This document shows positions 4,755 to 43,456 of a DNA stretch of 53,303 bases, one piece after another. This DNA comes from Bacillota bacterium (GTDB lineage: Bacteria > Bacillota > JADQBR01), in assembly GCA_016278515.1 (NCBI GenBank), contig JADQBR010000132.1:1-53303 (forward strand), given 5' to 3'. A program made the position numbers and the translations under genes. Each line of letters begins with the position of its first letter. Position 1 is the stretch's first letter. The notes beneath the pieces were generated by a model. The model was not told the origin of the DNA and ran no database searches. It saw only the letters and a program-made list of their open reading frames with translations.

Positions 4755-4775
4755 TGTTTAGGAATTAGACAACGT

Positions 4776-4868
4776 GTTAAAAAAAGGAACAAGCTTTGAG
4801 AAAGCTGTTGCAGTTAAGGTCCCGTTTTGGCCTTTAGTAGCTGTTCTTTTTTTGGCATAATTATTGCT
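4776..4868 (+). promoter_or_regulatory. Sigma-54 promoter with upstream half-sites (copy 1)
   Basis: TGGCATAATTATTGCT at 4853-4868 has the -24 GG (4854-4855) and -12 GC (4866-4867) separated by exactly 10 bases. Upstream, GTTAAAAAAAGGAACA (4776-4791) and GGTCCCGTTTTGG (4818-4830) sit 77 and 35 bases before the -24 element. They resemble inverted half-sites also found before the promoter at 45949. I infer a binding site for an AAA+ sigma-54 activator, possibly the one encoded at 43942. Confidence 0.7.
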
Positions 4869-4957
4869 TATCTAATAGTTTAAAATATTGTGATTTATAT
4901 GGAAATAATTTTGGCACATTACATCTAGATATAATTTTGGGAGGTGAAAACTCGTTA

Positions 4958-4975
4958 ATGAAAGCGTGTGAGTGA
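4958..4975 (+). other. Possible five-codon leader ORF (copy 1)
   Basis: GGGAGGTG at 4939-4946 is followed 11 bases later by ATG and the frame MKACE-stop. The same mini-frame is in copy 2 (9769-9786), and as MNACE in the decayed third copy (15053-15070). It may be a leader peptide or just the relic of an older gene start. Confidence 0.25.
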
Positions 4976-5009
4976 AACATGGTTTAAATTTTTGAAGGAG
5001 GTAATTTTA

Positions 5010-6113
5010 ATGGGAGAGAAGAAAGCGGAAATTGGAAAAGTTGCAAACATGGTTGAACCGATGAAACTAGAATTTAGAGAATTTAAAGTTCCGGAGCCTG
5101 GTGAAAATTGTTTAGTGGTGAAAGTAATAAGAACGAACGTATGTGGTTCCGAACTACATATATGGAGAGGAAAGCACCCCACGAAAAGGACCGGTGTATT
5201 AGGACATGAAATGGTGGGTGTAATTGAAAAGATTGGCCCCGGAGTGACAACAGATTTTGCGGATCAACCAATCAAAGTGGGTGACCGAGTAGCTTCAGCT
5301 TATTATAGAACTTGTCTAAAGTGTAAAGCTTGCTTAAGAGGCGACTTCAATAATTGTGAACGAAGTATTGAATTTTGGAACAAAAAGCCAGAAGAATTTC
5401 CTCATTTTCATGGCGCATTTGCGTCTCATTACTACATTCATCCAAATCAATACTTTTATAAAGTTCCTGATAATATACCAGATGTTGTCGCGGCAAGTGC
5501 AAACTGCGCCCTTTCACAAGTTTATTACGGACTTGATAAAGGGGAACTTGCAACAGGCGAAACCGTTGTTATCCAAGGTGCTGGAGGCTTAGGGTTGAAT
5601 GCTGTGGCAGTTGCAAAAGAAAGAGGAGCAATAGTGATCATCATCGACGCCCTTAAATCAAGACTTGAAATGGCAAAACAGTTTGGTGCTGATTATACTA
5701 TTGATTTAACCGAGCACGATACTGTCGAGAAAAGGGCTGAACTTGTACGTTCTTATACCGATGGTGAAGGCGCAGATTTAGGCCTCGAAGTTTCCGGAGT
5801 GCCAGAGGCGTTCGGGGAAGGTATTTATCTTATTCGAAACAATGGCAGATACGTCACAATGGGTAATATTTCACCAGGGAAAGTGATTGATTTTGATCCA
5901 GGTATCCTTACGAGAAAAGCGATTAGGATCATACCCATATTACGCTATAAGCCATGGTATTTAGCAAAAGCCCTGAAATTTCAATCCGCATGTATAGACA
6001 AATATCCTTTTGAAAGCATGATTGATTGTGATTTTTCATTTGAAAATATCGGTGAAGCCCTTGAAAAATCGGCGAGCCGAGAAGTAACGCGGGCCTCGAT
6101 TGTTATTGATTAG
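5010..6113 (+). CDS. Zinc-dependent alcohol dehydrogenase, MDR superfamily (copy 1)
   Basis: A 367-residue medium-chain dehydrogenase. Catalytic zinc ligands are visible as Cys45 (NVCGSELH) and His66-Glu67 (GHE). The structural-zinc lobe has four cysteines at about 102, 105, 108 and 116 (CLKCKACLRGDFNNC). The NAD(P) Rossmann motif is GAGGLGLNAVAVAKERGA. I chose ATG 5010 because AAGGAGGT lies 7 bases upstream; a GTG at 4968 in frame lacks a site. It oxidises or reduces an unknown alcohol/carbonyl. Since it is followed by a TctC binding protein, the substrate may be linked to the carboxylate imported. The second copy at 9821 encodes an identical protein. Confidence 0.85.
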   Translation: MGEKKAEIGKVANMVEPMKLEFREFKVPEPGENCLVVKVIRTNVCGSELHIWRGKHPTKRTGVLGHEMVGVIEKIGPGVTTDFADQPIKVGDRVASAYYRTCLKCKACLRGDFNNCERSIEFWNKKPEEFPHFHGAFASHYYIHPNQYFYKVPDNIPDVVAASANCALSQVYYGLDKGELATGETVVIQGAGGLGLNAVAVAKERGAIVIIIDALKSRLEMAKQFGADYTIDLTEHDTVEKRAELVRSYTDGEGADLGLEVSGVPEAFGEGIYLIRNNGRYVTMGNISPGKVIDFDPGILTRKAIRIIPILRYKPWYLAKALKFQSACIDKYPFESMIDCDFSFENIGEALEKSASREVTRASIVID

Positions 6114-6172
6114 CAGATGAGATACATTGTTAGGCAAACTAGAATATATTTAAAAATTTGGAGGTTAAACTT

Positions 6173-7201
6173 ATGAAGAAAAAAGTAATGGTTTTAACAA
6201 TGCTGGCATTTATGCTTGTGTTTGCGGCTGCTTGCGGTAATAATACCGAAAGTGCATCAGAGCAAAAACCAAAAGCAACGCCTAGTGAAGAAAAAGAAGT
6301 TGCTAAAGACGAACTAAAGTTTCCAGAAAAGCCTGTTACTTTAGTTGTACCTTATGCAGCAGGTGGGGGAACAGATGCAACTGCTAGAGCATTAGCAAAA
6401 GCAGCGGAAGAGTTTTTAGGTCAACCAATAGGCGTTGTGAATAAAACTGGTGGAAATGCAATCGTTGGTATGAGTGAAGTTGCAAATGCAAAACCGGATG
6501 GATATACACTTTTATTCAACACAAGTGAGATTGTAATTCTTCCACATCAAGGTATGTCACCGATTACTTATGAGGATTTCGCACAGATTGCGCAAATAAA
6601 TTTTGACCCATCTGCGTTAACGGTACCAGCAGATGCACCATATAACACATTAGAAGAATTTTTGGCTTATGCTAAAGAAAACCCAGGCAAAATTCGCGTT
6701 GGCGGTTCTGGTACAGGTGGTATTTGGCATTTAGGGTCGGCATCAATTGAAAAAGTTACTGGTGTTAAGTTGAATTATGTTCCATATGACGGTGGTGCGC
6801 CAGCCAAAACTGCATTACTTGGTGGTCATATTGAGGCTGTAACCATTAGTCCAGCAGAAGTTTTGACTCAAGTTAAAGCAGGTGAATTAAAAACATTGGC
6901 AGTGCTTGCTACAGACAGATCAGACTCAATGCCTGATGTACCTACGTTTAATGAAGCGGGTTATGATGTTGCCGTCGGTGTTTGGAGAGGAATCGATGCT
7001 CCTGCCGGTACGCCAGCTGAAGTCATTGAAAAGCTTCAAGAAGCATTTTTGAAAGCTGCCAAAGAACAAGAATTTATAACCTTTATGGAAAACAATGGTC
7101 TTGGGATCGTATTGAAAGGTTCAGAGGATTATCACAAGATGGTTAAAAAAGACAATGATTTTTACAAAGAGTTGCTAGGTGAGCTTGGTTTGTCAAATTA
7201 A
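6173..7201 (+). CDS. tctC: TctC/Bug-family solute-binding lipoprotein (copy 1)
   Basis: A 342-residue extracytoplasmic binding protein of the tripartite tricarboxylate transporter family. The N-terminus is MKKKVMVLTMLAFML with lipobox FAAAC, so it should be lipid-anchored outside the membrane. The mature part opens with FPEKPVTLVVPYAAGGGTDATARA, the signature ligand-binding region of this family, split here as FPEKPVTLVVPYAAGGGTD and the following helix. ATG 6173 has TTGGAGG upstream; the GTG at 6158 is in frame but precedes no site. In this copy tctB and tctA do not follow, so the protein would have to work with the permease encoded after copy 2. Ligand is a carboxylate, identity unknown. 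Confidence 0.85.
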   Translation: MKKKVMVLTMLAFMLVFAAACGNNTESASEQKPKATPSEEKEVAKDELKFPEKPVTLVVPYAAGGGTDATARALAKAAEEFLGQPIGVVNKTGGNAIVGMSEVANAKPDGYTLLFNTSEIVILPHQGMSPITYEDFAQIAQINFDPSALTVPADAPYNTLEEFLAYAKENPGKIRVGGSGTGGIWHLGSASIEKVTGVKLNYVPYDGGAPAKTALLGGHIEAVTISPAEVLTQVKAGELKTLAVLATDRSDSMPDVPTFNEAGYDVAVGVWRGIDAPAGTPAEVIEKLQEAFLKAAKEQEFITFMENNGLGIVLKGSEDYHKMVKKDNDFYKELLGELGLSN

Positions 7202-7227
7202 CATTACCATAAATTAAGCATAATTCC

Positions 7228-7259
7228 ATACAGAGAATTGCTGCTGCAATTCTCTGTAT
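7228..7259 (+). terminator. Perfect hairpin after tctC (copy 1)
   Basis: ATACAGAGAATTGC (7228-7241) pairs perfectly with GCAATTCTCTGTAT (7246-7259) over a TGCT loop, followed by TCCTTTT. In copy 2 the same hairpin sits between tctC and tctB, so it probably acts as an attenuator or mRNA stabiliser giving more binding protein than permease. In copy 1 it is the probable end of the transcript. Confidence 0.75.
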
Positions 7260-7267
7260 TCCTTTTA

Positions 7268-7533
7268 GAAAAGTTTGAAGTGCAATAGTAAACGAATATG
7301 GATGTTACCCCTACACTGATGGGGATTTAACTGAAACCGTCATAAGTATGTGCGTTTGGAGGCTTTGAATAGTGAGCTATTGCTGAATGTGGCAATACAC
7401 AAAAATGTATTAAGGCTTGCTCCAAACAGATGCCGTTGCGCCAGGTCATTGACAAAGCAAACAGTGCAATGCTAAAGTTTAAGGTAAAGATTGGCTTAAA
7501 GCCAAGCAACTATTTTTGGAGGTGACTAGGGAG
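7268..7533. other. Spacer between repeat copy 1 and the AOR gene
   Basis: About 265 bases with no recognisable gene or strong promoter. GGAGGTG at 7518-7524 is the ribosome binding site for the AOR start at 7534. Confidence 0.4.
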
Positions 7534-9225
7534 TTGGAGAAATTTCTAAGAGTTGATATGAATGAATTGCAGGTTTCTTACGAAGAAGTACCAGAGAAGT
7601 ATCAAAAAGTAGGCGGCAGAAGTTTAATAGCTAAACTGCTGTTGGACGAGGTTGTGCCCACTTGCGACGCACTCGGACCTCATAATAAACTAATCGTGGC
7701 AACGGGCTTGTTAGCCGGTACTAGCGTTTCAAGTGCGGGGCGGATATCGGTAGGTGCCAAGAGCCCTTTGACAGGCGGAATTAAGGAAAGTAACGCGGGT
7801 GGCATTACCGCCAACAGGCTGGCCCAAATGGGTGTAAAAGCTTTAGTAATTGAAGGGCTGCCGAAGGGTGATGATTGGTATATTGTAGTGATCAATGATC
7901 AAGGATGTAAACTGGTACCTGCTGAAGCCTACGTCGGTATGGGGACATACGAATTTTGCACCAAAATCCGGGAAGATTATTCTGATGCTGCGGTGACCTG
8001 TATAGGACCGGCCGGTGAAAAACTTTATAATGCTGCAGGGGTAGCCACCATAGACAGAGAAGGTTGGCCGAGTCGCTATAGTGGTCGCGGTGGCATGGGC
8101 GCGGTTATGGGTTCGAAAAAGATTAAGGCTATAGTAGTTGAAGGGAAAGGCCGTGTATCATTCGCGAATGAAGAGAAATTCAAGGATGCCCTCAAGGAAT
8201 ATACGGCAATTGTGAAAGATGCTCCAAGTACTGCCGCATATAAGGATTATGGAACGCCTTCCATGGTGCGTATAGTAGATGCATTGGGAGGATTGCCGGT
8301 TAATAACTTCAGTAATGGTTCTTTTGACCGGGTGGACGACATCAGTGCCGAAACCCTCAATGACGTAATCACCAGACGCGGTGGTAAGACCTCTCATGCT
8401 TGTATGGCGGGGTGTGTAATTGCCTGCTCTAACGTTTACGTAGATGAAGAAGGTGAAACCATTGTGTCGCCTCTCGAATATGAAACCATAGGCTTAATGG
8501 GTTCAAATCTTGGCATTTCTGATTTTGACGTCATCGCAAAACTAAACTACCTGTGTAATGATATTGGCTTAGACACTATTGAGACTGGAGCAGCTATTGC
8601 TGTGGCTATGGAAAGTGGAGTGGCCGCATTCGGTGATGGCGAGGCAGCGTTAAAAATGGTGGAAGAGATGCGCCAGGGAACAGTATTGGGCAGGGTGCTG
8701 GGTGCTGGAACTGCCGTAACTGGTAAAGTGTTTGGAGTGCGCAATGTACCGGTAGTGAAGGGCCAGGCTATGGCAGCATATGACCCTCGGGCTTTAAAAG
8801 GAATGGGTGTCACTTATGCCACTTCAGCCATGGGAGCGGATCACACTGCCGGACCGACAGGTAAGGCGAAAGTAGATCATTCAAGTCCCGACGGGGCAGC
8901 AGACCTTTCTTTAACCCTGCAGAAAAAGATACCTGTATATGATTGTACAGGCCTTTGTATGTTTACCATCGGTTCCATTGGTGCACATCCTCAGGTAATT
9001 ATAGACTTACTCAACAGCCGTTTCGGCTGGGATTTGAATGTGGATTGGCTTAATGAAATGAGCCTCGAGACCTTAAAAGACGAATACCGTTTTAATGAAC
9101 TAGCCGGGTTTACCAAGTTGAGTCATCGTTTACCTGAAGCGTTTACAGAAAGAGAGTTGCCAAATTTAGGTACAGTTTTCGATGTTCCTGATGAAGATAT
9201 TGACCAAATGATGAAATATAGCTAA
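7534..9225 (+). CDS. aor: Aldehyde:ferredoxin oxidoreductase (tungsten-pterin family), C-terminus short
   Basis: A 563-residue protein. The N-terminal AOR domain includes the GGRSLIAKLL and ATGLLAGTSV segments that bind the bis-pterin cofactor. The iron-sulfur ligands are three cysteines at about 290, 294 and 298 (CMAGCVIAC) and a later DCTGLC near 471-475. It should oxidise an aldehyde to the carboxylic acid with ferredoxin as acceptor, or reduce acids in reverse. TTG 7534 is preferred because GGAGGTG lies about 9 bases upstream. The sequence stops at DIDQMMKYS, where relatives normally go on with a YYxxRGWDxxGVPT tail of about 40 residues. A tail of exactly that type lies decayed at 41254-41367. 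The gene may be a C-terminally truncated form. Confidence 0.85.
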   Translation: MEKFLRVDMNELQVSYEEVPEKYQKVGGRSLIAKLLLDEVVPTCDALGPHNKLIVATGLLAGTSVSSAGRISVGAKSPLTGGIKESNAGGITANRLAQMGVKALVIEGLPKGDDWYIVVINDQGCKLVPAEAYVGMGTYEFCTKIREDYSDAAVTCIGPAGEKLYNAAGVATIDREGWPSRYSGRGGMGAVMGSKKIKAIVVEGKGRVSFANEEKFKDALKEYTAIVKDAPSTAAYKDYGTPSMVRIVDALGGLPVNNFSNGSFDRVDDISAETLNDVITRRGGKTSHACMAGCVIACSNVYVDEEGETIVSPLEYETIGLMGSNLGISDFDVIAKLNYLCNDIGLDTIETGAAIAVAMESGVAAFGDGEAALKMVEEMRQGTVLGRVLGAGTAVTGKVFGVRNVPVVKGQAMAAYDPRALKGMGVTYATSAMGADHTAGPTGKAKVDHSSPDGAADLSLTLQKKIPVYDCTGLCMFTIGSIGAHPQVIIDLLNSRFGWDLNVDWLNEMSLETLKDEYRFNELAGFTKLSHRLPEAFTERELPNLGTVFDVPDEDIDQMMKYS

Positions 9226-9323
9226 GAGACTATATTTTATTAGTTGTAACCAGAGCACCAAATTTTTTAATTGGGAAGGAAACAAAAGCCGTTTACTAGC
9301 GACCTTATAAAGGATGGCATAGA

Positions 9324-9373
9324 GCATTATAAAAGAGACAGTCTGGAAATCCAGACTGTCTCTTTTATAATGC
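9324..9373. terminator. Bidirectional rho-independent terminator after AOR
   Basis: A perfect 23-bp inverted repeat (9324-9346 with 9351-9373) has an AAAT loop. The stem runs from A-rich to GTCTGG/CCAGAC to T-rich, so it can terminate in either direction. It isolates the AOR gene from repeat copy 2. Confidence 0.9.
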
Positions 9374-9429
9374 ATTCGGCATGGGGATTAACTAGGTGTT
9401 AAAAGTCCACTGAGGGGGTTAGTAGTTAA

Positions 9430-9565
9430 TAACCATTACTAATTTACCCTACTTCAGTTTCTGTTTTCAATGGTTCTTGATCCTAATTGAAGTTCTCGAA
9501 CGTTAGCCGCATGCTCAGTTGGGTGCAATTACACCATGGCGCTATTGATGAAACTTTAATATATC
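9430..9565. other. Unique sequence upstream of repeat copy 2, matched by the decayed third copy
   Basis: The stretch 9480-9565 (CCTAATTGAAG, then CAGTTGGGTGCAATTACA, then CGCTATTGATGAA) recurs with about 10 percent changes at 14727-14811, just before the decayed third promoter copy. It is absent before copy 1. Copy 2 therefore keeps the older flank and copy 1 is probably the newer insertion. No gene is recognised. Confidence 0.6.
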
Positions 9566-9586
9566 TGTTTAGGAATTAGACAACGT

Positions 9587-9679
9587 GTTAAAAAAAGGAA
9601 CAAGCTTTGAGAAAGCTGTTGCAGTTAAGGTCCCGTTTTGGCCTTTAGTAGCTGTTCTTTTTTTGGCATAATTATTGCT
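9587..9679 (+). promoter_or_regulatory. Sigma-54 promoter with upstream half-sites (copy 2)
   Basis: The -24/-12 element TGGCATAATTATTGCT lies at 9664-9679 and the upstream half-sites start at 9587 and 9629. Sequence and spacing are the same as in copy 1. This promoter would drive adh-tctC-tctB-tctA. Confidence 0.7.
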
Positions 9680-9820
9680 TATCTAATAGTTTAAAATATT
9701 GTGATTTATATGGAAATAATTTTGGCACATTACATCTAGATATAATTTTGGGAGGTGAAAACTCGTTAATGAAAGCGTGTGAGTGAAACATGGTTTAAAT
9801 TTTTGAAGGAGGTAATTTTA

Positions 9821-10924
9821 ATGGGAGAGAAGAAAGCGGAAATTGGAAAAGTTGCAAACATGGTTGAACCGATGAAACTAGAATTTAGAGAATTTAAAGT
9901 TCCGGAGCCTGGTGAAAATTGTTTAGTGGTGAAAGTAATAAGAACGAACGTATGTGGTTCCGAACTACATATATGGAGAGGAAAGCACCCCACGAAAAGG
10001 ACCGGTGTATTAGGACATGAAATGGTGGGTGTAATTGAAAAGATTGGCCCCGGAGTGACAACAGATTTTGCGGATCAACCAATCAAAGTGGGTGACCGAG
10101 TAGCTTCAGCTTATTATAGAACTTGTCTAAAGTGTAAAGCTTGCTTAAGAGGCGACTTCAATAATTGTGAACGAAGTATTGAATTTTGGAACAAAAAGCC
10201 AGAAGAATTTCCTCATTTTCATGGCGCATTTGCGTCTCATTACTACATTCATCCAAATCAATACTTTTATAAAGTTCCTGATAATATACCAGATGTTGTC
10301 GCGGCAAGTGCAAACTGCGCCCTTTCACAAGTTTATTACGGACTTGATAAAGGGGAACTTGCAACAGGCGAAACCGTTGTTATCCAAGGTGCTGGAGGCT
10401 TAGGGTTGAATGCTGTGGCAGTTGCAAAAGAAAGAGGAGCAATAGTGATCATCATCGACGCCCTTAAATCAAGACTTGAAATGGCAAAACAGTTTGGTGC
10501 TGATTATACTATTGATTTAACCGAGCACGATACTGTCGAGAAAAGGGCTGAACTTGTACGTTCTTATACCGATGGTGAAGGCGCAGATTTAGGCCTCGAA
10601 GTTTCCGGAGTGCCAGAGGCGTTCGGGGAAGGTATTTATCTTATTCGAAACAATGGCAGATACGTCACAATGGGTAATATTTCACCAGGGAAAGTGATTG
10701 ATTTTGATCCAGGTATCCTTACGAGAAAAGCGATTAGGATCATACCCATATTACGCTATAAGCCATGGTATTTAGCAAAAGCCCTGAAATTTCAATCCGC
10801 ATGTATAGACAAATATCCTTTTGAAAGCATGATTGATTGTGATTTTTCATTTGAAAATATCGGTGAAGCCCTTGAAAAATCGGCGAGCCGAGAAGTAACG
10901 CGGGCCTCGATTGTTATTGATTAG
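9821..10924 (+). CDS. Zinc-dependent alcohol dehydrogenase, MDR superfamily (copy 2)
   Basis: Identical at protein level to the 367-residue enzyme at 5010, with catalytic Cys45 and His66-Glu67, four structural-zinc cysteines and the GAGGLG nucleotide-binding motif. Here it is the first gene of a complete adh-tctC-tctB-tctA operon behind a sigma-54 promoter. That suggests the dehydrogenase acts on, or downstream of, the carboxylate imported by the TTT transporter. The start ATG follows AAGGAGGT. Confidence 0.85.
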   Translation: MGEKKAEIGKVANMVEPMKLEFREFKVPEPGENCLVVKVIRTNVCGSELHIWRGKHPTKRTGVLGHEMVGVIEKIGPGVTTDFADQPIKVGDRVASAYYRTCLKCKACLRGDFNNCERSIEFWNKKPEEFPHFHGAFASHYYIHPNQYFYKVPDNIPDVVAASANCALSQVYYGLDKGELATGETVVIQGAGGLGLNAVAVAKERGAIVIIIDALKSRLEMAKQFGADYTIDLTEHDTVEKRAELVRSYTDGEGADLGLEVSGVPEAFGEGIYLIRNNGRYVTMGNISPGKVIDFDPGILTRKAIRIIPILRYKPWYLAKALKFQSACIDKYPFESMIDCDFSFENIGEALEKSASREVTRASIVID

Positions 10925-10983
10925 CAGATGAGATACATTGTTAGGCAAACTAGAATATATTTAAAAATTTGGAGGTTAAACTT

Positions 10984-12012
10984 ATGAAGAAAAAAGTAAT
11001 GGTTTTAACAATGCTGGCATTTATGCTTGTGTTTGCGGCTGCTTGCGGTAATAATACCGAAAGTGCATCAGAGCAAAAACCAAAAGCAACGCCTAGTGAA
11101 GAAAAAGAAGTTGCTAAAGACGAACTAAAGTTTCCAGAAAAGCCTGTTACTTTAGTTGTACCTTATGCAGCAGGTGGGGGAACAGATGCAACTGCTAGAG
11201 CATTAGCAAAAGCAGCGGAAGAGTTTTTAGGTCAACCAATAGGCGTTGTGAATAAAACTGGTGGAAATGCAATCGTTGGTATGAGTGAAGTTGCAAATGC
11301 AAAACCGGATGGATATACACTTTTATTCAACACAAGTGAGATTGTAATTCTTCCACATCAAGGTATGTCACCGATTACTTATGAGGATTTCGCACAGATT
11401 GCGCAAATAAATTTTGACCCATCTGCGTTAACGGTACCAGCAGATGCACCATATAACACATTAGAAGAATTTTTGGCTTATGCTAAAGAAAACCCAGGCA
11501 AAATTCGCGTTGGCGGTTCTGGTACAGGTGGTATTTGGCATTTAGGGTCGGCATCAATTGAAAAAGTTACTGGTGTTAAGTTGAATTATGTTCCATATGA
11601 CGGTGGTGCGCCAGCCAAAACTGCATTACTTGGTGGTCATATTGAGGCTGTAACCATTAGTCCAGCAGAAGTTTTGACTCAAGTTAAAGCAGGTGAATTA
11701 AAAACATTGGCAGTGCTTGCTACAGACAGATCAGACTCAATGCCTGATGTACCTACGTTTAATGAAGCGGGTTATGATGTTGCCGTCGGTGTTTGGAGAG
11801 GAATCGATGCTCCTGCCGGTACGCCAGCTGAAGTCATTGAAAAGCTTCAAGAAGCATTTTTGAAAGCTGCCAAAGAACAAGAATTTATAACCTTTATGGA
11901 AAACAATGGTCTTGGGATCGTATTGAAAGGTTCAGAGGATTATCACAAGATGGTTAAAAAAGACAATGATTTTTACAAAGAGTTGCTAGGTGAGCTTGGT
12001 TTGTCAAATTAA
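10984..12012 (+). CDS. tctC: TctC/Bug-family solute-binding lipoprotein (copy 2)
   Basis: Identical at protein level to the 342-residue lipoprotein at 6173, with signal peptide and lipobox FAAAC. It is the binding component of the tripartite tricarboxylate transporter whose membrane subunits follow immediately. A perfect hairpin between it and tctB likely sets a high ratio of binding protein to permease. Substrate class: di- or tricarboxylate or another organic acid. The exact ligand cannot be read. Confidence 0.9.
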   Translation: MKKKVMVLTMLAFMLVFAAACGNNTESASEQKPKATPSEEKEVAKDELKFPEKPVTLVVPYAAGGGTDATARALAKAAEEFLGQPIGVVNKTGGNAIVGMSEVANAKPDGYTLLFNTSEIVILPHQGMSPITYEDFAQIAQINFDPSALTVPADAPYNTLEEFLAYAKENPGKIRVGGSGTGGIWHLGSASIEKVTGVKLNYVPYDGGAPAKTALLGGHIEAVTISPAEVLTQVKAGELKTLAVLATDRSDSMPDVPTFNEAGYDVAVGVWRGIDAPAGTPAEVIEKLQEAFLKAAKEQEFITFMENNGLGIVLKGSEDYHKMVKKDNDFYKELLGELGLSN

Positions 12013-12038
12013 CATTACCATAAATTAAGCATAATTCC

Positions 12039-12070
12039 ATACAGAGAATTGCTGCTGCAATTCTCTGTAT
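12039..12070 (+). promoter_or_regulatory. Intercistronic attenuator hairpin between tctC and tctB
   Basis: The same 14-bp perfect stem with TGCT loop as at 7228-7259, followed by TCCTTTT. It lies within the operon, so partial termination or 3-prime-end protection of the tctC message is the likely role. Confidence 0.7.
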
Positions 12071-12101
12071 TCCTTTTAACTGAGAAAAGGGGGCTAAACT
12101 T

Positions 12102-12539
12102 TTGAAGAAAGCAAATCAAATCGCTAGTTTGATAGGTATCGCCATTGCAATGTTCTTCTTTGTTCTGACGTTTCAATTCAAGCAGATTGAATATCAAGAC
12201 ACTGGGCCTGCATTAATGCCACGTTTGTATTCGGGGGTTTTAATTGTTCTTGCCCTTATATTATTTTTCAATTCATATAGGACTAAAGAAAAAGTCGAAA
12301 AGGGTAATGTAAAAATGGCATTAATTACAATGGCATTGGTGCTCACGATAGTTGTTTTGATACCGATTATTGGGTTTTATATTATTACGCCAATTGTTAT
12401 CTTTGTATTTTTAAAAATATGCCAACAAACAAACAAAAAGATTTTATTCGGTTTACCAATAGGAGTAGTATTATTTATTTTTGTTTTCTTCCAAAAAATT
12501 CTCTCGGTTCCAATTCCGACTGGGATATTCTTTCAATAA
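12102..12539 (+). CDS. tctB: TctB-family small membrane subunit of the TTT transporter
   Basis: A 145-residue, very hydrophobic protein with about four transmembrane segments (starting IASLIGIAIAMFFFVLTFQF, then VLIVLALILFFNS, then ITMALVLTIVVLIPIIGF and a last IGVVLFIFVFF helix). The size and the DTGPALMPRLYSGVLIVLA segment fit TctB. TTG at 12102 follows AAAAGGGGG. It lies between tctC and tctA, 20 bases before tctA. It forms the small integral-membrane subunit that works with TctA. Confidence 0.85.
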   Translation: MKKANQIASLIGIAIAMFFFVLTFQFKQIEYQDTGPALMPRLYSGVLIVLALILFFNSYRTKEKVEKGNVKMALITMALVLTIVVLIPIIGFYIITPIVIFVFLKICQQTNKKILFGLPIGVVLFIFVFFQKILSVPIPTGIFFQ

Positions 12540-12559
12540 AAGAAAGGAGGACTTAATCG

Positions 12560-14080
12560 ATGGAACTATTATTGCAAGGGCTTATGAATGTTTTAGATAT
12601 TAAAGTGGTTTCTATTTTGTTTTTGTCAGGTGCTGTAGGGATTTTCATCGGTTCCTTGCCAGGTTTAACCGCAACAATGGGTGTTGCCCTTTTATTACCA
12701 GTTACATTTGGAATGGAGCCGGTGAAAGGGATATTATTATTAGTTGGTGTTTATTTTGGTGCGATTTACGGGGGCTCTATTTCAGCCATATTACTAAGAA
12801 CACCAGGAACCCCTTCCTCAGCCGCCACAGCACTTGATGGTTATGAGATGACAAAAAAAGGGTTAGCCTATAAAGCACTAACGGTCTCGACGCTTTCTTC
12901 AACAATCGGAGGGATTTTGAGTGTTATTCTTTTAATTTTTATCGCCCCTCAACTAGCGAAATTCGCGTTAAAATTTAGTGCACCCGAAACATTTGCGCTT
13001 GCTTTGTTCGGTTTAGCAATAATATCAAGTATTTCTGGGACATCTTTAGTTAAAGGTCTAATGGCGGGCTTTGCAGGACTTCTAATAGCTTCCATTGGAA
13101 TTGATCCGATTGGAGGTTTTCCCCGATTTACCTTTGGAACGGCTAATTTGATGGGTGGTATTAGCTATATCCCTGTTTTAATCGGTTTGTTCGCGGCTTC
13201 CGAGGCATTTCATACAGCGGAAAATGTTTTGATACAGACTAAAACAGTCAGCACTAGTATTAACAAAGTCAAGTTAAAATGGGCTGAGTTTAAAAAGTTG
13301 ATTATTGTTATTTTAAGGTCAACATTTATTGGGACATTTATTGGGATGATACCCGGTGCAGGGGGAGATATTGCTTCCTTTGTTTCCTATAATGAAGCCA
13401 AAAGATGGTCAAAGAACCCAGATGAATTTGGGAAGGGAAACATGGAAGGCGTTTCCGCCTCGGAAGCGGCCAATAACGGCTGTACAGGTGGAGCGATGAT
13501 ACCGCTATTAACTCTTGGTATACCAGGAGATGCAGTAACAGCTGTAATGTTAGGTGCGTTAATGGTTCAAGGGTTACAGCCAGGACCTTTATTGTTTACA
13601 AACCATGCTGATATTGTCTATACTTTATTTATTGGTATGTTATTTGCCAATATGCTGATCCTATTTTATGGTATGTTAGGCATTCGTTTATTTGTGAAAA
13701 TTCTACAAATACATAAGGCTATTTTAACCCCAATTATATTGGTTTTATGTATAGTCGGTTCGTATGCACTCGGAAATAATTTCTTTGACGTATGGGTTAT
13801 GCTAATTGCTGGAATTATAGGCTATGTGATGAATAAATATAATTTTCCACCTTCGCCTGTTATTCTTGCGCTAATACTGGGCCCGATGATGGAAGCAAGT
13901 CTTCGGCGTGCTCTCGTAATATCTAGTGGAGATGTTAGTATATTTTTTACAAGGCCGATATCCGCAACGCTACTGTTATTAGCGATTGGAACTTTATTAT
14001 ATCCAATAATATTAGATTGGAAAAAAACTAGAAAAACAACTACGGATGCGAAGCAATACGATGCAAGTAATATAGATTAA
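12560..14080 (+). CDS. tctA: TctA-family large membrane subunit of the TTT transporter
   Basis: A 506-residue permease with about 12 transmembrane segments. Signature regions of the family are present: GSLPGLTATMGVALLLP near the N-terminus and GGSISAILLRTPGTPSSAAT at about 70-90. The internally repeated counterparts GMIPGAGGDIASFVSY and LTLGIPGDAVTAV follow later. The length is typical. ATG 12560 follows AAAGGAGG. It completes the adh-tctCBA operon and carries out proton- or sodium-coupled uptake of the bound carboxylate. Confidence 0.92.
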   Translation: MELLLQGLMNVLDIKVVSILFLSGAVGIFIGSLPGLTATMGVALLLPVTFGMEPVKGILLLVGVYFGAIYGGSISAILLRTPGTPSSAATALDGYEMTKKGLAYKALTVSTLSSTIGGILSVILLIFIAPQLAKFALKFSAPETFALALFGLAIISSISGTSLVKGLMAGFAGLLIASIGIDPIGGFPRFTFGTANLMGGISYIPVLIGLFAASEAFHTAENVLIQTKTVSTSINKVKLKWAEFKKLIIVILRSTFIGTFIGMIPGAGGDIASFVSYNEAKRWSKNPDEFGKGNMEGVSASEAANNGCTGGAMIPLLTLGIPGDAVTAVMLGALMVQGLQPGPLLFTNHADIVYTLFIGMLFANMLILFYGMLGIRLFVKILQIHKAILTPIILVLCIVGSYALGNNFFDVWVMLIAGIIGYVMNKYNFPPSPVILALILGPMMEASLRRALVISSGDVSIFFTRPISATLLLLAIGTLLYPIILDWKKTRKTTTDAKQYDASNID

Positions 14081-14700: not shown

Positions 14701-14726
14701 TTATATTTCACCGATATTTTTGTTAC

Positions 14727-15163
14727 CTAATTGAAGTTTCTGAACGTCAGCCGAATGCTCAGTTGGGTGCAATTACATCATGACGCTATTGATGAACCTT
14801 GATATATTTGTTTAAAAACTAGACAAAACGTTAACAAAAGGAACAAGCTCTTAGAAATCTGTTGCAGTTAGGGTCCTGTTTTGGCCTTTAATAACTATTC
14901 TTTTCTTGGCATAATTATTGCACATCTTATAGTTTGCAATATTGTAATTTCATGGGGGATAGCTCTAGTAAATTACAAAGTTGTAGGTTTTTTCTTTGAG
15001 AAATGGTATATATATCATCTAGATATAATTTTGGAAGGTTAAAAATTTGTTAATGAATGCGTGTGAGTGAAACATAATTTAAATTTTCAAAGGCGGTAAT
15101 TTTAATATGGTTGAACCGATGAAACTTGAACTTAGAGAATTTAAAGTCCCGGAAGTAAACTAA
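14727..15163 (+). pseudogene. Decayed third copy of the adh promoter region and adh 5-prime end
   Basis: From 14727 the sequence follows the region upstream of copy 2 with scattered differences, through the sigma-54 promoter, the mini leader frame and a ribosome site. It reaches ATG 15107, which encodes MVEPMKLELREFKVPEVN and then a stop. This matches ADH residues 14-29 and then breaks off. The coding part is dead, but the promoter itself (14907-14922) is intact. Confidence 0.8.
14830..14922 (+). promoter_or_regulatory. Sigma-54 promoter with upstream half-sites (diverged third copy)
   Basis: TGGCATAATTATTGCA at 14907-14922 is an even better -24/-12 match than copies 1 and 2. GTTAACAAAAGGAACAAG begins 77 bases upstream (14830) and GGTCCTGTTTTGG begins 35 bases upstream (14872). 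Conservation of these blocks while neighbouring bases drift suggests they matter. It could now drive the iron alcohol dehydrogenase at 15487. Confidence 0.65.
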
Positions 15164-15486: not shown

Positions 15487-16653
15487 ATGAAAAAGATTCA
15501 GACCTTTTTAATGAAGACCAAGATTGTTAGTGGCGAAAATTTGACTAGTCATGTTGGAGAATATGTCAAAGAGTTAAACGGCAAAAACATAATGATTGTA
15601 ACTGATCCCGGAATAATTAATGCTGGATTATTAAAAAGACTTGAAAAGAACCTGAAGGATATGTCTATTGATTTTACTATTTACAGTGAAGTAGTGTCCA
15701 ATCCTATTATATCTTCTATTGAAAAAGGGGCGGAGATTGCTAAAGAAGCGAAAACTGATTTGTTTATTGCTTTGGGTGGAGGAAGTTCTATTGACACTGC
15801 AAAGGGTATTAATATTTTATTGAGTAATGGTGGCGGTATAAAGAATTATGCTGGTGCTAATAAGGTACAGAAGCCGACCTGCCCCTTAATTGCCATCCCT
15901 ACGACATGTGGCACAGGTAGTGAAGTAACATGGTCGACAGTCGTTTCAGATCCTGAGCAGGGGTACAAATTTCCCGTTTTAACTACCCATGTAATGCCTG
16001 ACATCGCTATAATAGACCCGACATTAATGTCATCACTGCCGTCAAAGTTAATTGCTTCTACTGGAATGGATGCCTTGACCCATGCGTTAGAGGCGTATGT
16101 TTCCACGAATGCACAGCCTATCAGTGATGCATTAGCCATTCATGCAATAGAATTGATTTCAAACAACCTACGACAAGCTGTGCATTATCAAGAGAATCAA
16201 AATTATATTAGTGAAATGGCGATAGCCAGTACAATCGCAGGTATTGCTCTTAATATGCCCATGCTTGGCTTAGTTCACGCTATGGCAACACCCTTGGGTG
16301 GAATTTTTAACATTCCCCATGGAATTGCTAACGCAGTTTTGCTCCCTTATGTAATGAAGTTTAATCTTGTAGCTTGTCCTGAAAGATTTGCCAAAATCGC
16401 TCAGGTGATGGGAGAAAAAGTAGAAAGGCTAACCACATTGGAAGCAGCGGAGAAGGCATTTAAGGCTGTGCAAAAATTATCATCAGATGTAGGTATTCCT
16501 AATAATTTAAAAGATATTGGTATGGACATTAGCAAACTTGAAAAGCTGGCAGAAGATAGTATGAAAAGTGGCAATTGTAACACCAATCCTAGAAAAAATA
16601 GTATTGATGAAGTGAAAGCCATCTTTTGCGATGCATACGAAGGCCAATTGTAA
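15487..16653 (+). CDS. Iron-containing alcohol dehydrogenase (group III)
   Basis: A 388-residue Fe-ADH. The NAD-binding GGGSSIDTAKG motif is near residue 98. Metal ligands lie in the DALTHALEAY helix and in HAMATPLGGIFNIPHG, containing the conserved histidines. The length is standard for this family, which interconverts alcohols and aldehydes with NAD(P)H. ATG 15487 has GGGAGGAGG directly upstream. It follows the decayed third sigma-54 promoter copy, which may now express it. Substrate is unknown; 1,2-propanediol, ethanol, butanol or hydroxyacid-type substrates all occur in the family. Confidence 0.88.
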   Translation: MKKIQTFLMKTKIVSGENLTSHVGEYVKELNGKNIMIVTDPGIINAGLLKRLEKNLKDMSIDFTIYSEVVSNPIISSIEKGAEIAKEAKTDLFIALGGGSSIDTAKGINILLSNGGGIKNYAGANKVQKPTCPLIAIPTTCGTGSEVTWSTVVSDPEQGYKFPVLTTHVMPDIAIIDPTLMSSLPSKLIASTGMDALTHALEAYVSTNAQPISDALAIHAIELISNNLRQAVHYQENQNYISEMAIASTIAGIALNMPMLGLVHAMATPLGGIFNIPHGIANAVLLPYVMKFNLVACPERFAKIAQVMGEKVERLTTLEAAEKAFKAVQKLSSDVGIPNNLKDIGMDISKLEKLAEDSMKSGNCNTNPRKNSIDEVKAIFCDAYEGQL

Positions 16654-19990: not shown

Positions 19991-19994
19991 GGTA

Positions 19995-20291
19995 ACGCCT
20001 GTTGCTTTGGCGGACAGTGTTACAAGTATCTTTGCAGCGTTGGCAATTATGATTACAGTTTATGAGAGAGACGTGGTTGACAGTGGCAGAGGGCAGTCCA
20101 TTGCCAGTCACTGATAGAAGTCGAAGACTTAAGTAAAATCCAGCTACCGGGCATGTTTGCCAAATTATCTCTTGCTCCGGGATCCGTTATATTTACCGGC
20201 CGGACAAAGGTGCGCATAACAAAGAAATATACAAGGGTTTAGGCTTTATCGAGGAAGAGATTGAACAGTTGCCGAAGCCGGAATCATCTAG
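19995..20291 (+). pseudogene. Decayed class III CoA-transferase fragment
   Basis: This stretch matches two separate parts of the intact CoA-transferase gene at 40032. 19995-20100 resembles 40526-40630 (CCTGTTGCTTTGGCGGAC and following). 20101-20305 resembles 41030-41235 (the final codons, the TAG and the CCTTCGGTT after it). About 400 bases are deleted between two GGCAGTC-type short repeats, and point changes and frameshifts have accumulated. It cannot encode a functional enzyme. Confidence 0.85.
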
Positions 20292-20340
20292 ACCTTCGGT
20301 TAATGCTCTTGTAAGAAACTATTTAGGAGGTTACTTGATT

Positions 20341-40031: not shown

Positions 40032-41228
40032 ATGGCTAATCAACAGCTGCCTTTGGCAGGTTTGAAGGTCATCGATATTGCGACAATGATGGCTGCCCCG
40101 TGGGCAGCAACCTACTTAGGTGATTATGGTGCCGACTTAATTAAGATCGAACATCCGATTAAGGGGGACGCAGTCAGGAATTTCGGTGAAGAAAAGAACG
40201 GCAAGGGAGTATTTTGGAAAAGTCTTTCACGGAATAAAAAGTGTATTACCCTTAATCTCAAGGAAGAGAAGGGAAAAGAAATATTTTTTAAACTGATTAA
40301 AGATGCAGACGTATTAATAGAGAACTTTCGCCCCGGTACTATGGAAAAATGGGGCGTTGGCTGGGAGGAACTGGAGAAGATCAATCCCAAGCTGATTATG
40401 CTTCGCTGTTCTGGTTTCGGCCAGGACGGGCCATATGCAAAACGTGGTGGTTTCGGTACGGTGGCAGAAGGCATAAGCGGCTTTGCTTCCATTAACGGCT
40501 ATCCCGACAGCCCGCCGACCTTACCGCCTGTTGCTTTGGCGGACGGCGTTACAGGTGTCTTTGCAGCATTGGCAATTATGATTGCAGTTCATGAAAGAGC
40601 CGGCAGCGGCAAAGGGCAGTCTATTGACATCTGTCTCTATGAACCGCTGATGCGTATGTTGGAATGCAACATCATGGAATACAGTACCCTAAAGAAAATA
40701 CCTAGCCGGATTGGAAACCGGATAAACTCTGCTGCGCCGAGAAATGTCTATCAAGCCGGTGATGGCAGGTGGGTAGCACTTTCCGGTAGCGCTCAACCTA
40801 TAGCGGAGAACGTCTTTAAGGCTATTGGCAAGCCCGAATTAATTGATGATCCAAGATTTAAAGACAATCCCAGCCGGGTTAAGAATGTGGATGAACTGGA
40901 TGATATTATCGGAGAGTGGATAGCTCAGCGTACCTTCAAGGAAGCAGTAGATATACTACTGGCGGCAGGAGCAGTAGCAGGACCGGTTTATGAGGTTGAT
41001 CAGATGTTTACTGACCCTCATCTAAATCACCGGCAGTCATTGATAGAAGTCGAAGATGAAGACTTGGGTAAAATCCAGATGCCGGGCATGTTTGCCAAAT
41101 TATCTCGTACCCCAGGATCCGTTAGATTTACCGGCCCGGACAAAGGTGCGCATAACAAAGAAATATACAAGGGTTTAGGCTTTACAGAAGAAGAGATTGA
41201 ACAGTTGGCCGAAGCCGGAGTCATCTAG
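40032..41228 (+). CDS. Class III CoA-transferase (CaiB/BaiF family)
   Basis: A 398-residue family III CoA-transferase. N-terminal PLAGLKVIDIATMMAAPWAA, then YGADLIKIEHPIKGD, the LNLKEEKGKEIFFKLIKDAD block, ENFRPGTMEKWG and LIMLRCSGFGQDGPYAKRGG. The active-site aspartate region follows about 30 residues later, near PPVALADGVTGVFAA. ATG 40032 follows GGGAGGG. It moves CoA between two carboxylic acids, for example to or from the acid imported or produced here. A decayed partial copy lies at 19995. Confidence 0.9.
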   Translation: MANQQLPLAGLKVIDIATMMAAPWAATYLGDYGADLIKIEHPIKGDAVRNFGEEKNGKGVFWKSLSRNKKCITLNLKEEKGKEIFFKLIKDADVLIENFRPGTMEKWGVGWEELEKINPKLIMLRCSGFGQDGPYAKRGGFGTVAEGISGFASINGYPDSPPTLPPVALADGVTGVFAALAIMIAVHERAGSGKGQSIDICLYEPLMRMLECNIMEYSTLKKIPSRIGNRINSAAPRNVYQAGDGRWVALSGSAQPIAENVFKAIGKPELIDDPRFKDNPSRVKNVDELDDIIGEWIAQRTFKEAVDILLAAGAVAGPVYEVDQMFTDPHLNHRQSLIEVEDEDLGKIQMPGMFAKLSRTPGSVRFTGPDKGAHNKEIYKGLGFTEEEIEQLAEAGVI

Positions 41229-41253
41229 GCCTTCGGTTCATGGGAGGAATTGG

Positions 41254-41367
41254 GGTTGGGATAAAAATGGCGTTCCCACCGCAAATAAACTTAATCAGTT
41301 GGGGCTGGGTTATTTAGTGGATAGGCTGTCCGAGAGTGAAGTTGCCGTCAGTAAAGATAACGCATAA
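41254..41367 (+). pseudogene. C-terminal remnant of an aldehyde:ferredoxin oxidoreductase
   Basis: The frame ending at TAA 41365-41367 reads GWDKNGVPTANKLNQLGLG and then YLVDRLSESEVAV. This is the characteristic AOR tail (RGWDxxGVPTxEKLxxLGL). No AOR domain precedes it, since the CoA-transferase stop is only 26 bases upstream. It is followed 28 bases later by a MoaD-like gene, an arrangement common for AOR operons. It is a remnant of a deleted AOR gene. Confidence 0.75.
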
Positions 41368-41395
41368 AGAACATCAGTTAGATCGGAGGTTAATG

Positions 41396-41632
41396 ATGAA
41401 AATTAATCTCGTAATTTGGGGAAGTTTGAAGGAATTATTGCCTCATCTGCAGAAAGAATACACAGATTACCAAGTTTTAGAAGGAACTTCCATTGAAAAC
41501 ATAACGAAACAGCTGGAAATTCCCGACGGCCTAGTACTAAACGCATCTGTTGATGGAGTACTGCAGGATTTAGATTATATTCCTTTTGACGGGCAGCGGG
41601 TGGTATTGCTTTCGCCCATCGCCGGAGGATAA
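41396..41632 (+). CDS. MoaD/ThiS-family sulfur-carrier protein
   Basis: A 78-residue beta-grasp protein ending in PIAGG, the di-glycine tail needed for adenylation and thiocarboxylation. GGAGGT at 41385-41390 supports ATG 41396 (ATG 41393 is next door). MoaD-type proteins donate sulfur to molybdopterin/tungstopterin. The AOR remnant just upstream suggests it once served tungsten cofactor synthesis for that AOR, and could serve the intact AOR at 7534 today. ThiS is the alternative but no thiamine genes are nearby. Confidence 0.8.
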   Translation: MKINLVIWGSLKELLPHLQKEYTDYQVLEGTSIENITKQLEIPDGLVLNASVDGVLQDLDYIPFDGQRVVLLSPIAGG

Positions 41633-43113: not shown

Positions 43114-43456
43114 TTGCCATTGGTTAATTCACTTTTAACAGCCTGCCATTCTCCTAAATAGTCTCGGTTAAAACCGCAAGACACAAAAAAGCAGCAGTTA
43201 ATTCTCGCTTGATATGCTCCCCTTAAGGTAGACAGGTAAAAAAATAAGCTGTTGCTGAAAGGGGAGTATTTTCATGTCTAGAAGAAGCAGCGATTTCGTT
43301 CATCTTTTGTACATGGCAAACAAAACGTCCCCGTGGTCCTCCCGTCCCCGTGGTCCTCCCGTCCCCGTGGTCCTCCCCGTGGTCCTGGGGTTTTTTGTAA
43401 GAATCTTTCAATTGCAATTAAAATCATGTTATAATAAAACAAAGGGGTGCTGTAGA
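43114..43456. other. Inserted-looking island: IS3-like end, tandem repeats
   Basis: AAAACCGCAAGA plus a poly-A/AGCAGCAG block at 43172-43209 is repeated at 43725-43768. Between the two lie CTCCCCTTAAGGTAGACAGG (43217-43236), with an AAGGGGAG partner at 43259, and ATGTCTAGAAGAAGC at 43274. These look like the left end and orfA start of an IS3-family element. Then come three 17-bp tandem repeats (see 43327) and the AbrB-like gene. No transposase body survives. Confidence 0.55.
43327..43391. repeat. Short tandem repeat, 17-bp unit
   Basis: GTCCCCGTGGTCCTCCC is repeated three times in tandem (43327-43343, 43344-43360, 43361-43377), followed by a partial unit ending CGTGGTCCTGGGG. GC-rich repeats of this GGGGAC type are scattered in several Bacillota genomes. 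It has no coding look in any frame. Confidence 0.9.

Follow-up and report, generated by a model that had tools for sequence, protein, structure and literature searches.

A tail-less tungsten aldehyde ferredoxin oxidoreductase and a probable 3' remnant of a separate, tailed homologue on one Bacillota contig

In PMC13328260, the WOR family is described as a 92-clade family in which the Class I enzymes, of the PfAOR/BmWOR type, consist of WorL alone, and section 7 of the same source gives the name WorX to a ThiS-like protein found near some Class I WORs. The PfAOR of P. furiosus ends with a tail of about 21 residues that carries the motif RGWDxxGxP. In this work, we analysed a stretch of 53,303 nucleotides from a Bacillota bacterium (contig JADQBR010000132.1, hereafter the window), in which an aldehyde ferredoxin oxidoreductase (AOR) gene at 7534..9225 on the + strand lacks this tail, while an AOR tail without its gene body stands at 41 kb. 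The initial annotation had considered that the gene ends early and encodes a shortened enzyme, and that either two AOR genes had existed or one had been split by rearrangement. We propose that the window very probably contains a complete tail-less AOR together with an independent remnant of a deleted, tailed AOR. Both components, a member of a known enzyme family and a gene remnant, are ordinary.

The frame of the window AOR extends from 7516 to 9225, and translation probably begins with the TTG at 7534, which matches the starts of relatives and gives a WorL-like protein of 563 aa. The C-terminus reads ...PDEDIDQMMKYS, and the last residues are DIDQMMKYS followed by the stop, exactly as initially reported. 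Both Pfam domains, AFOR_N (PF02730, E = 1e-62) and AFOR_C (PF01314, E = 4.2e-68), were found above the cut-off. The predicted model reached a mean pLDDT of 94.6, with low confidence for the last three modelled residues (pLDDT 59), and its residues 1-563 were aligned to residues 5-584 of the 605 of 1AOR (Z 49.4, rmsd 1.7, 546 residues). Structure prediction had been suggested as a check on the allegedly truncated end, and it returned a complete fold in which only the last ~21 residues of PfAOR are left without a counterpart.

The PfAOR residues were mapped on the window AOR by alignment, and their conservation was read from a further alignment of 33 rows, namely the window AOR and 32 others, obtained from 35 rows by removing a duplicate window row and the partial sequence L009. 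C290, C294, C298 and C475 are invariant in all 33 rows, and from their role in PfAOR and the cysteine numbering we take them to be the [4Fe-4S] ligands. T241, E317 and H437, corresponding to Thr243, Glu313 and His448 of PfAOR, are likewise invariant (33/33), and Y416 (Tyr427 of PfAOR) is a Tyr in the window AOR and in 30 of the 33 rows overall. These four PfAOR residues are listed in section 5 of PMC13328260. By homology, the window AOR would bind a tungsto-bispyranopterin and one [4Fe-4S] cluster, and would convert an aldehyde to the acid, or the reverse, with ferredoxin as the putative carrier. In its fold, its W-pterin residues and its four cysteines for one cluster, it appears similar to a Class I WOR. 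It also resembles this class in having no adjacent WorS, WorN or WorABC, none of the neighbours tested being of the WorS type, and it differs in lacking the C-terminal tail of PfAOR. The window AOR is a full-length and probably active member of its branch, an active enzyme being the default reading.

The missing tail proved to be the mark of a whole branch of the family. Relatives were searched in 149 genomes, including the own genome, and 74 of them had a match at E ≤ 1e-60. In a further set, loci from named genomes that were the best 80 of 555 relatives and thus a sample biased towards near kin, all 80 loci end between -2 and +17 residues from the end of the window AOR, 74 of them between -2 and +4, and none contains the tail pattern. 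Among the matches listed for the 149 genomes, there is a strong group that reaches E = 1.7e-112, a pair of partial matches near 1e-99 and, from 7.7e-81 on, a weaker group. Most members of the strong group listed align up to query residue 555-562, and a few are partial. In the weaker group (E 1e-80 to 1e-66), the tail was present in 20 of the 20 loci inspected, of which 17 were called by pattern, two by eye (RNW for RGW) and one after frame choice.

The own genome provides a similar picture, with 11 AOR-family genes, six of which have a GW-type tail and five of which, including the window AOR, are tail-less and stop at the same point. The window AOR is 26-53 % identical to these paralogues. We also constructed an unrooted tree of 62 rows, consisting of the window AOR, 45 of the 80 loci mentioned above, seven further AORs in those loci, and nine own-genome AORs (six tailed and three tail-less), and the 49 tail-less rows were split from the others with a support of 100/100. 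Within the 33-row alignment, the loose tail pattern occurred in one row, on an inner AGYSEG stretch that is not a tail. Total length was tried as a mark of the branch and rejected, since L155, an AOR frame that does carry the tail, is also 563 aa long; the mark is the missing tail. The branch is thus naturally without the last ~21 residues of PfAOR-like forms. The initial annotation had named such an AOR subfamily, ending naturally at this point with conserved length, as evidence against its own view, and we found that the window AOR ends together with its branch, including four other AORs of its own genome. Nine PDB sequences matched the window AOR, all of 604-653 residues, and none aligned beyond window residue 544; therefore, it seems that no member of the tail-less branch has been solved. 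Nothing relevant emerged when the literature was searched for AORs that are shorter or have no tail. As a separate observation, L009 (C39 of the own genome) is a tail-less AOR whose match to the window AOR begins only at residue 200 in the available stretch, and it is followed by a GG-ending ThiS-like frame.

Since the better known, tailed AORs run beyond the end of the window AOR, the gene might be taken for a pseudogene or a sequencing-error truncation that lost its tail by a late stop or frameshift. However, the end is conserved in the best 80 of 555 relatives, and the sequence past the stop holds no trace of a lost tail: when the tails of the six tailed own-genome AORs and the 41-kb fragment were searched against 9223-9780, the best match had only E = 0.25, and none of the downstream frames showed a tail. 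A perfect, terminator-like hairpin also lies 3' of the gene at 9326..9371 (+ strand; 21 pairs, loop of 4, folded at -32 kcal/mol), beginning 100 bases past the stop. Taken against these results, a truncated or dead gene is extremely improbable. The hairpin is absent from the consensus scan list, the Rfam scan of the window gave nothing at gathering thresholds, and the tRNA scan of the window found none. When the loose AOR-tail pattern was applied to all six frames of the window, the sole fit was at 41251-41367.

This fit belongs to the 3' remnant of a tailed AOR gene at 41243..41367 (+ strand), which retains the last ~37 codons and ends with the stop TAA at 41365-41367. Its open part, 41251-41367, starts with WGWDKNGVPTANKLNQLGL... 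and reads in full WGWDKNGVPTANKLNQLGLGYLVDRLSESEVAVSKDNA before the stop. The initial annotation had correctly placed an AOR tail beside a MoaD-like gene, here a ThiS/MoaD-like gene from 41393, and had called the tail decayed; it contains no internal stop or frameshift, so it is truncated rather than decayed. The last positions of Pfam AFOR_C (369-385) match the fragment with E = 0.045, which falls below the curated cut-off and is weak alone. We then compared the 36-aa tail with 398 genomes from the phylum, the own genome among them, and matches at E ≤ 0.001 were obtained in 12 genomes, 11 of them foreign. Each of the 11 foreign matches lies in an AOR-like frame, as judged by similarity to the tailed AORs of the own genome, and begins with 21-33 aa left to the end of that frame; one of these frames (L046) is only 133 aa long. 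Downstream of seven of the 11, a small GG-ending gene ends within 531 bases, with Pfam ThiS above the cut-off in six and below it in the seventh; no such gene was found downstream in the other four. An AOR end upstream of a small ThiS-like gene, which had been recommended as a search, does occur in other genomes of the phylum. Because the 11 foreign matches end AOR-like frames, seven with a GG-ending gene downstream, the fragment is best read as the C-terminus of a separate, tailed AOR (WorL) gene.

With body and tail on one contig, and in a region that holds duplicated and decayed pieces, a single ancestral AOR might instead have been split by rearrangement, leaving its body at 7534 and its tail at 41 kb. 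However, the fragment matches the ends of tailed AORs, which are another part of the family, the window AOR's branch ends at the same point in all of the best 80 of 555 relatives, and the modelled fold is complete without the tail. Such a split is extremely unlikely. Of the two alternatives initially offered, it is the existence of two AOR genes that the data bear out, and no gene was split. Another explanation is that the fragment's frame and its upstream codons form a new small gene of 56-62 codons, which would agree with an open frame free of stops standing before an intact gene. The first part of this frame, however, is the 3' end of the neighbouring CaiB-type gene in another frame, and we regard a new gene as very unlikely; the search of other genomes covered the AOR-like part of the frame.

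The downstream ThiS/MoaD-like gene at 41393..41632 (+ strand) has an intact frame and encodes a 79-aa protein with a GG end, a candidate WorX-type partner of the lost enzyme. Pfam ThiS matched it at E = 0.0012 (19.8 bits, cut-off 22.5), and its upstream WorL is the scrap only. The protein is clearly similar to those of L045, L048, L049 and L050 (E 2.5e-12 to 1.8e-9) and weakly to that of L053 (2e-4), with no significant likeness to L047 and L051. No match besides its own was found in 149 genomes at E ≤ 1e-8, and viral contigs gave no relative. With an AOR end directly upstream of a ThiS-like gene, the locus resembles the WorL-WorX pair of section 7 of PMC13328260, and it differs in that only the last ~37 WorL codons are left beside the intact WorX frame. 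Further downstream, a small frame for which Pfam gave no match is preceded by a G+C-rich tandem repeat at 43326-43386, in which a 17-base unit present in 3.1 exact copies overlaps with a 12-base repeat.

Directly upstream of the remnant lies a CaiB-type (family III) CoA transferase gene at 40032..41228 (+ strand; 398 aa, CoA_transf_3 6.4e-123). At 19993-20305, immediately behind a DctM-like gene, there is a second, decayed copy of this gene that consists of two pieces, one with 82 % and the other with 89 % identity, and extends into the frame of a LarA-like gene. The sequence shared with this copy ends at 41242, and the junction is therefore placed at about 41242-41251. We suggest that the tailed AOR gene probably stood between the CaiB-type gene and the ThiS-like (WorX) partner, and that the body of this WorL would have been deleted, leaving its last ~37 codons, while WorX survived. 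The ancestral order CaiB-AOR-WorX is one that we infer rather than observe, because no intact locus of this kind was found when the surroundings of CaiB matches were searched in 199 genomes, the own genome among them; at 13 CaiB loci other than that of the window, with flanks of up to 1500 bases, none had an AOR or ThiS-like match.

For the function of the window AOR, we considered its neighbours. The genes at 4968-14080 are, in order, an alcohol dehydrogenase, TctC, the AOR, exact copies of the alcohol dehydrogenase and TctC, TctB and TctA, and no ferredoxin-type subunit is among them. The zinc-type alcohol dehydrogenase and TctC genes, identical on either side of the AOR, lie in an exact direct repeat of 2513 bases (4755-7267 and 9566-12078, offset 4811), which represents either a very recent duplication or an assembly effect. 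If it is a recent duplication, the repeat could excise or amplify the AOR. At 14726-15153, the start of the repeat unit and the stretch upstream of it recur in a third, decayed copy (72 % identical to 9482-9906). Among the loci of the best 80 of 555 relatives, in stretches of up to 5 kb on each side, many of them ended by contig ends, relatives of the zinc-type alcohol dehydrogenase were found in one and those of TctC in none (both at E ≤ 1e-12), those of TctA in one, those of the iron-type alcohol dehydrogenase (15487-16653) in seven and those of the sigma-54-type activator of the window in six. The neighbourhood is not conserved, and synteny gives the function no backing. With alcohol dehydrogenase genes on both sides, the window AOR most likely acts on an aldehyde formed from an alcohol, which suggests a role in alcohol-aldehyde-acid conversion.

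It is possible, if rather doubtful, that the tail-less AOR branch is functionally distinct and that the tail was lost in connection with a different partner, quaternary structure or substrate; if so, its members might act, for example, on alcohol-derived aldehydes passed on by a dehydrogenase. The present analysis removes a false anomaly, in that AORs of this branch should not be labelled truncated, and it draws attention to a broad AOR branch, which has five copies in the own genome and no solved structure among the PDB matches. The locus at 41 kb, in turn, would represent a case of large-gene loss from a WorL-WorX pair.
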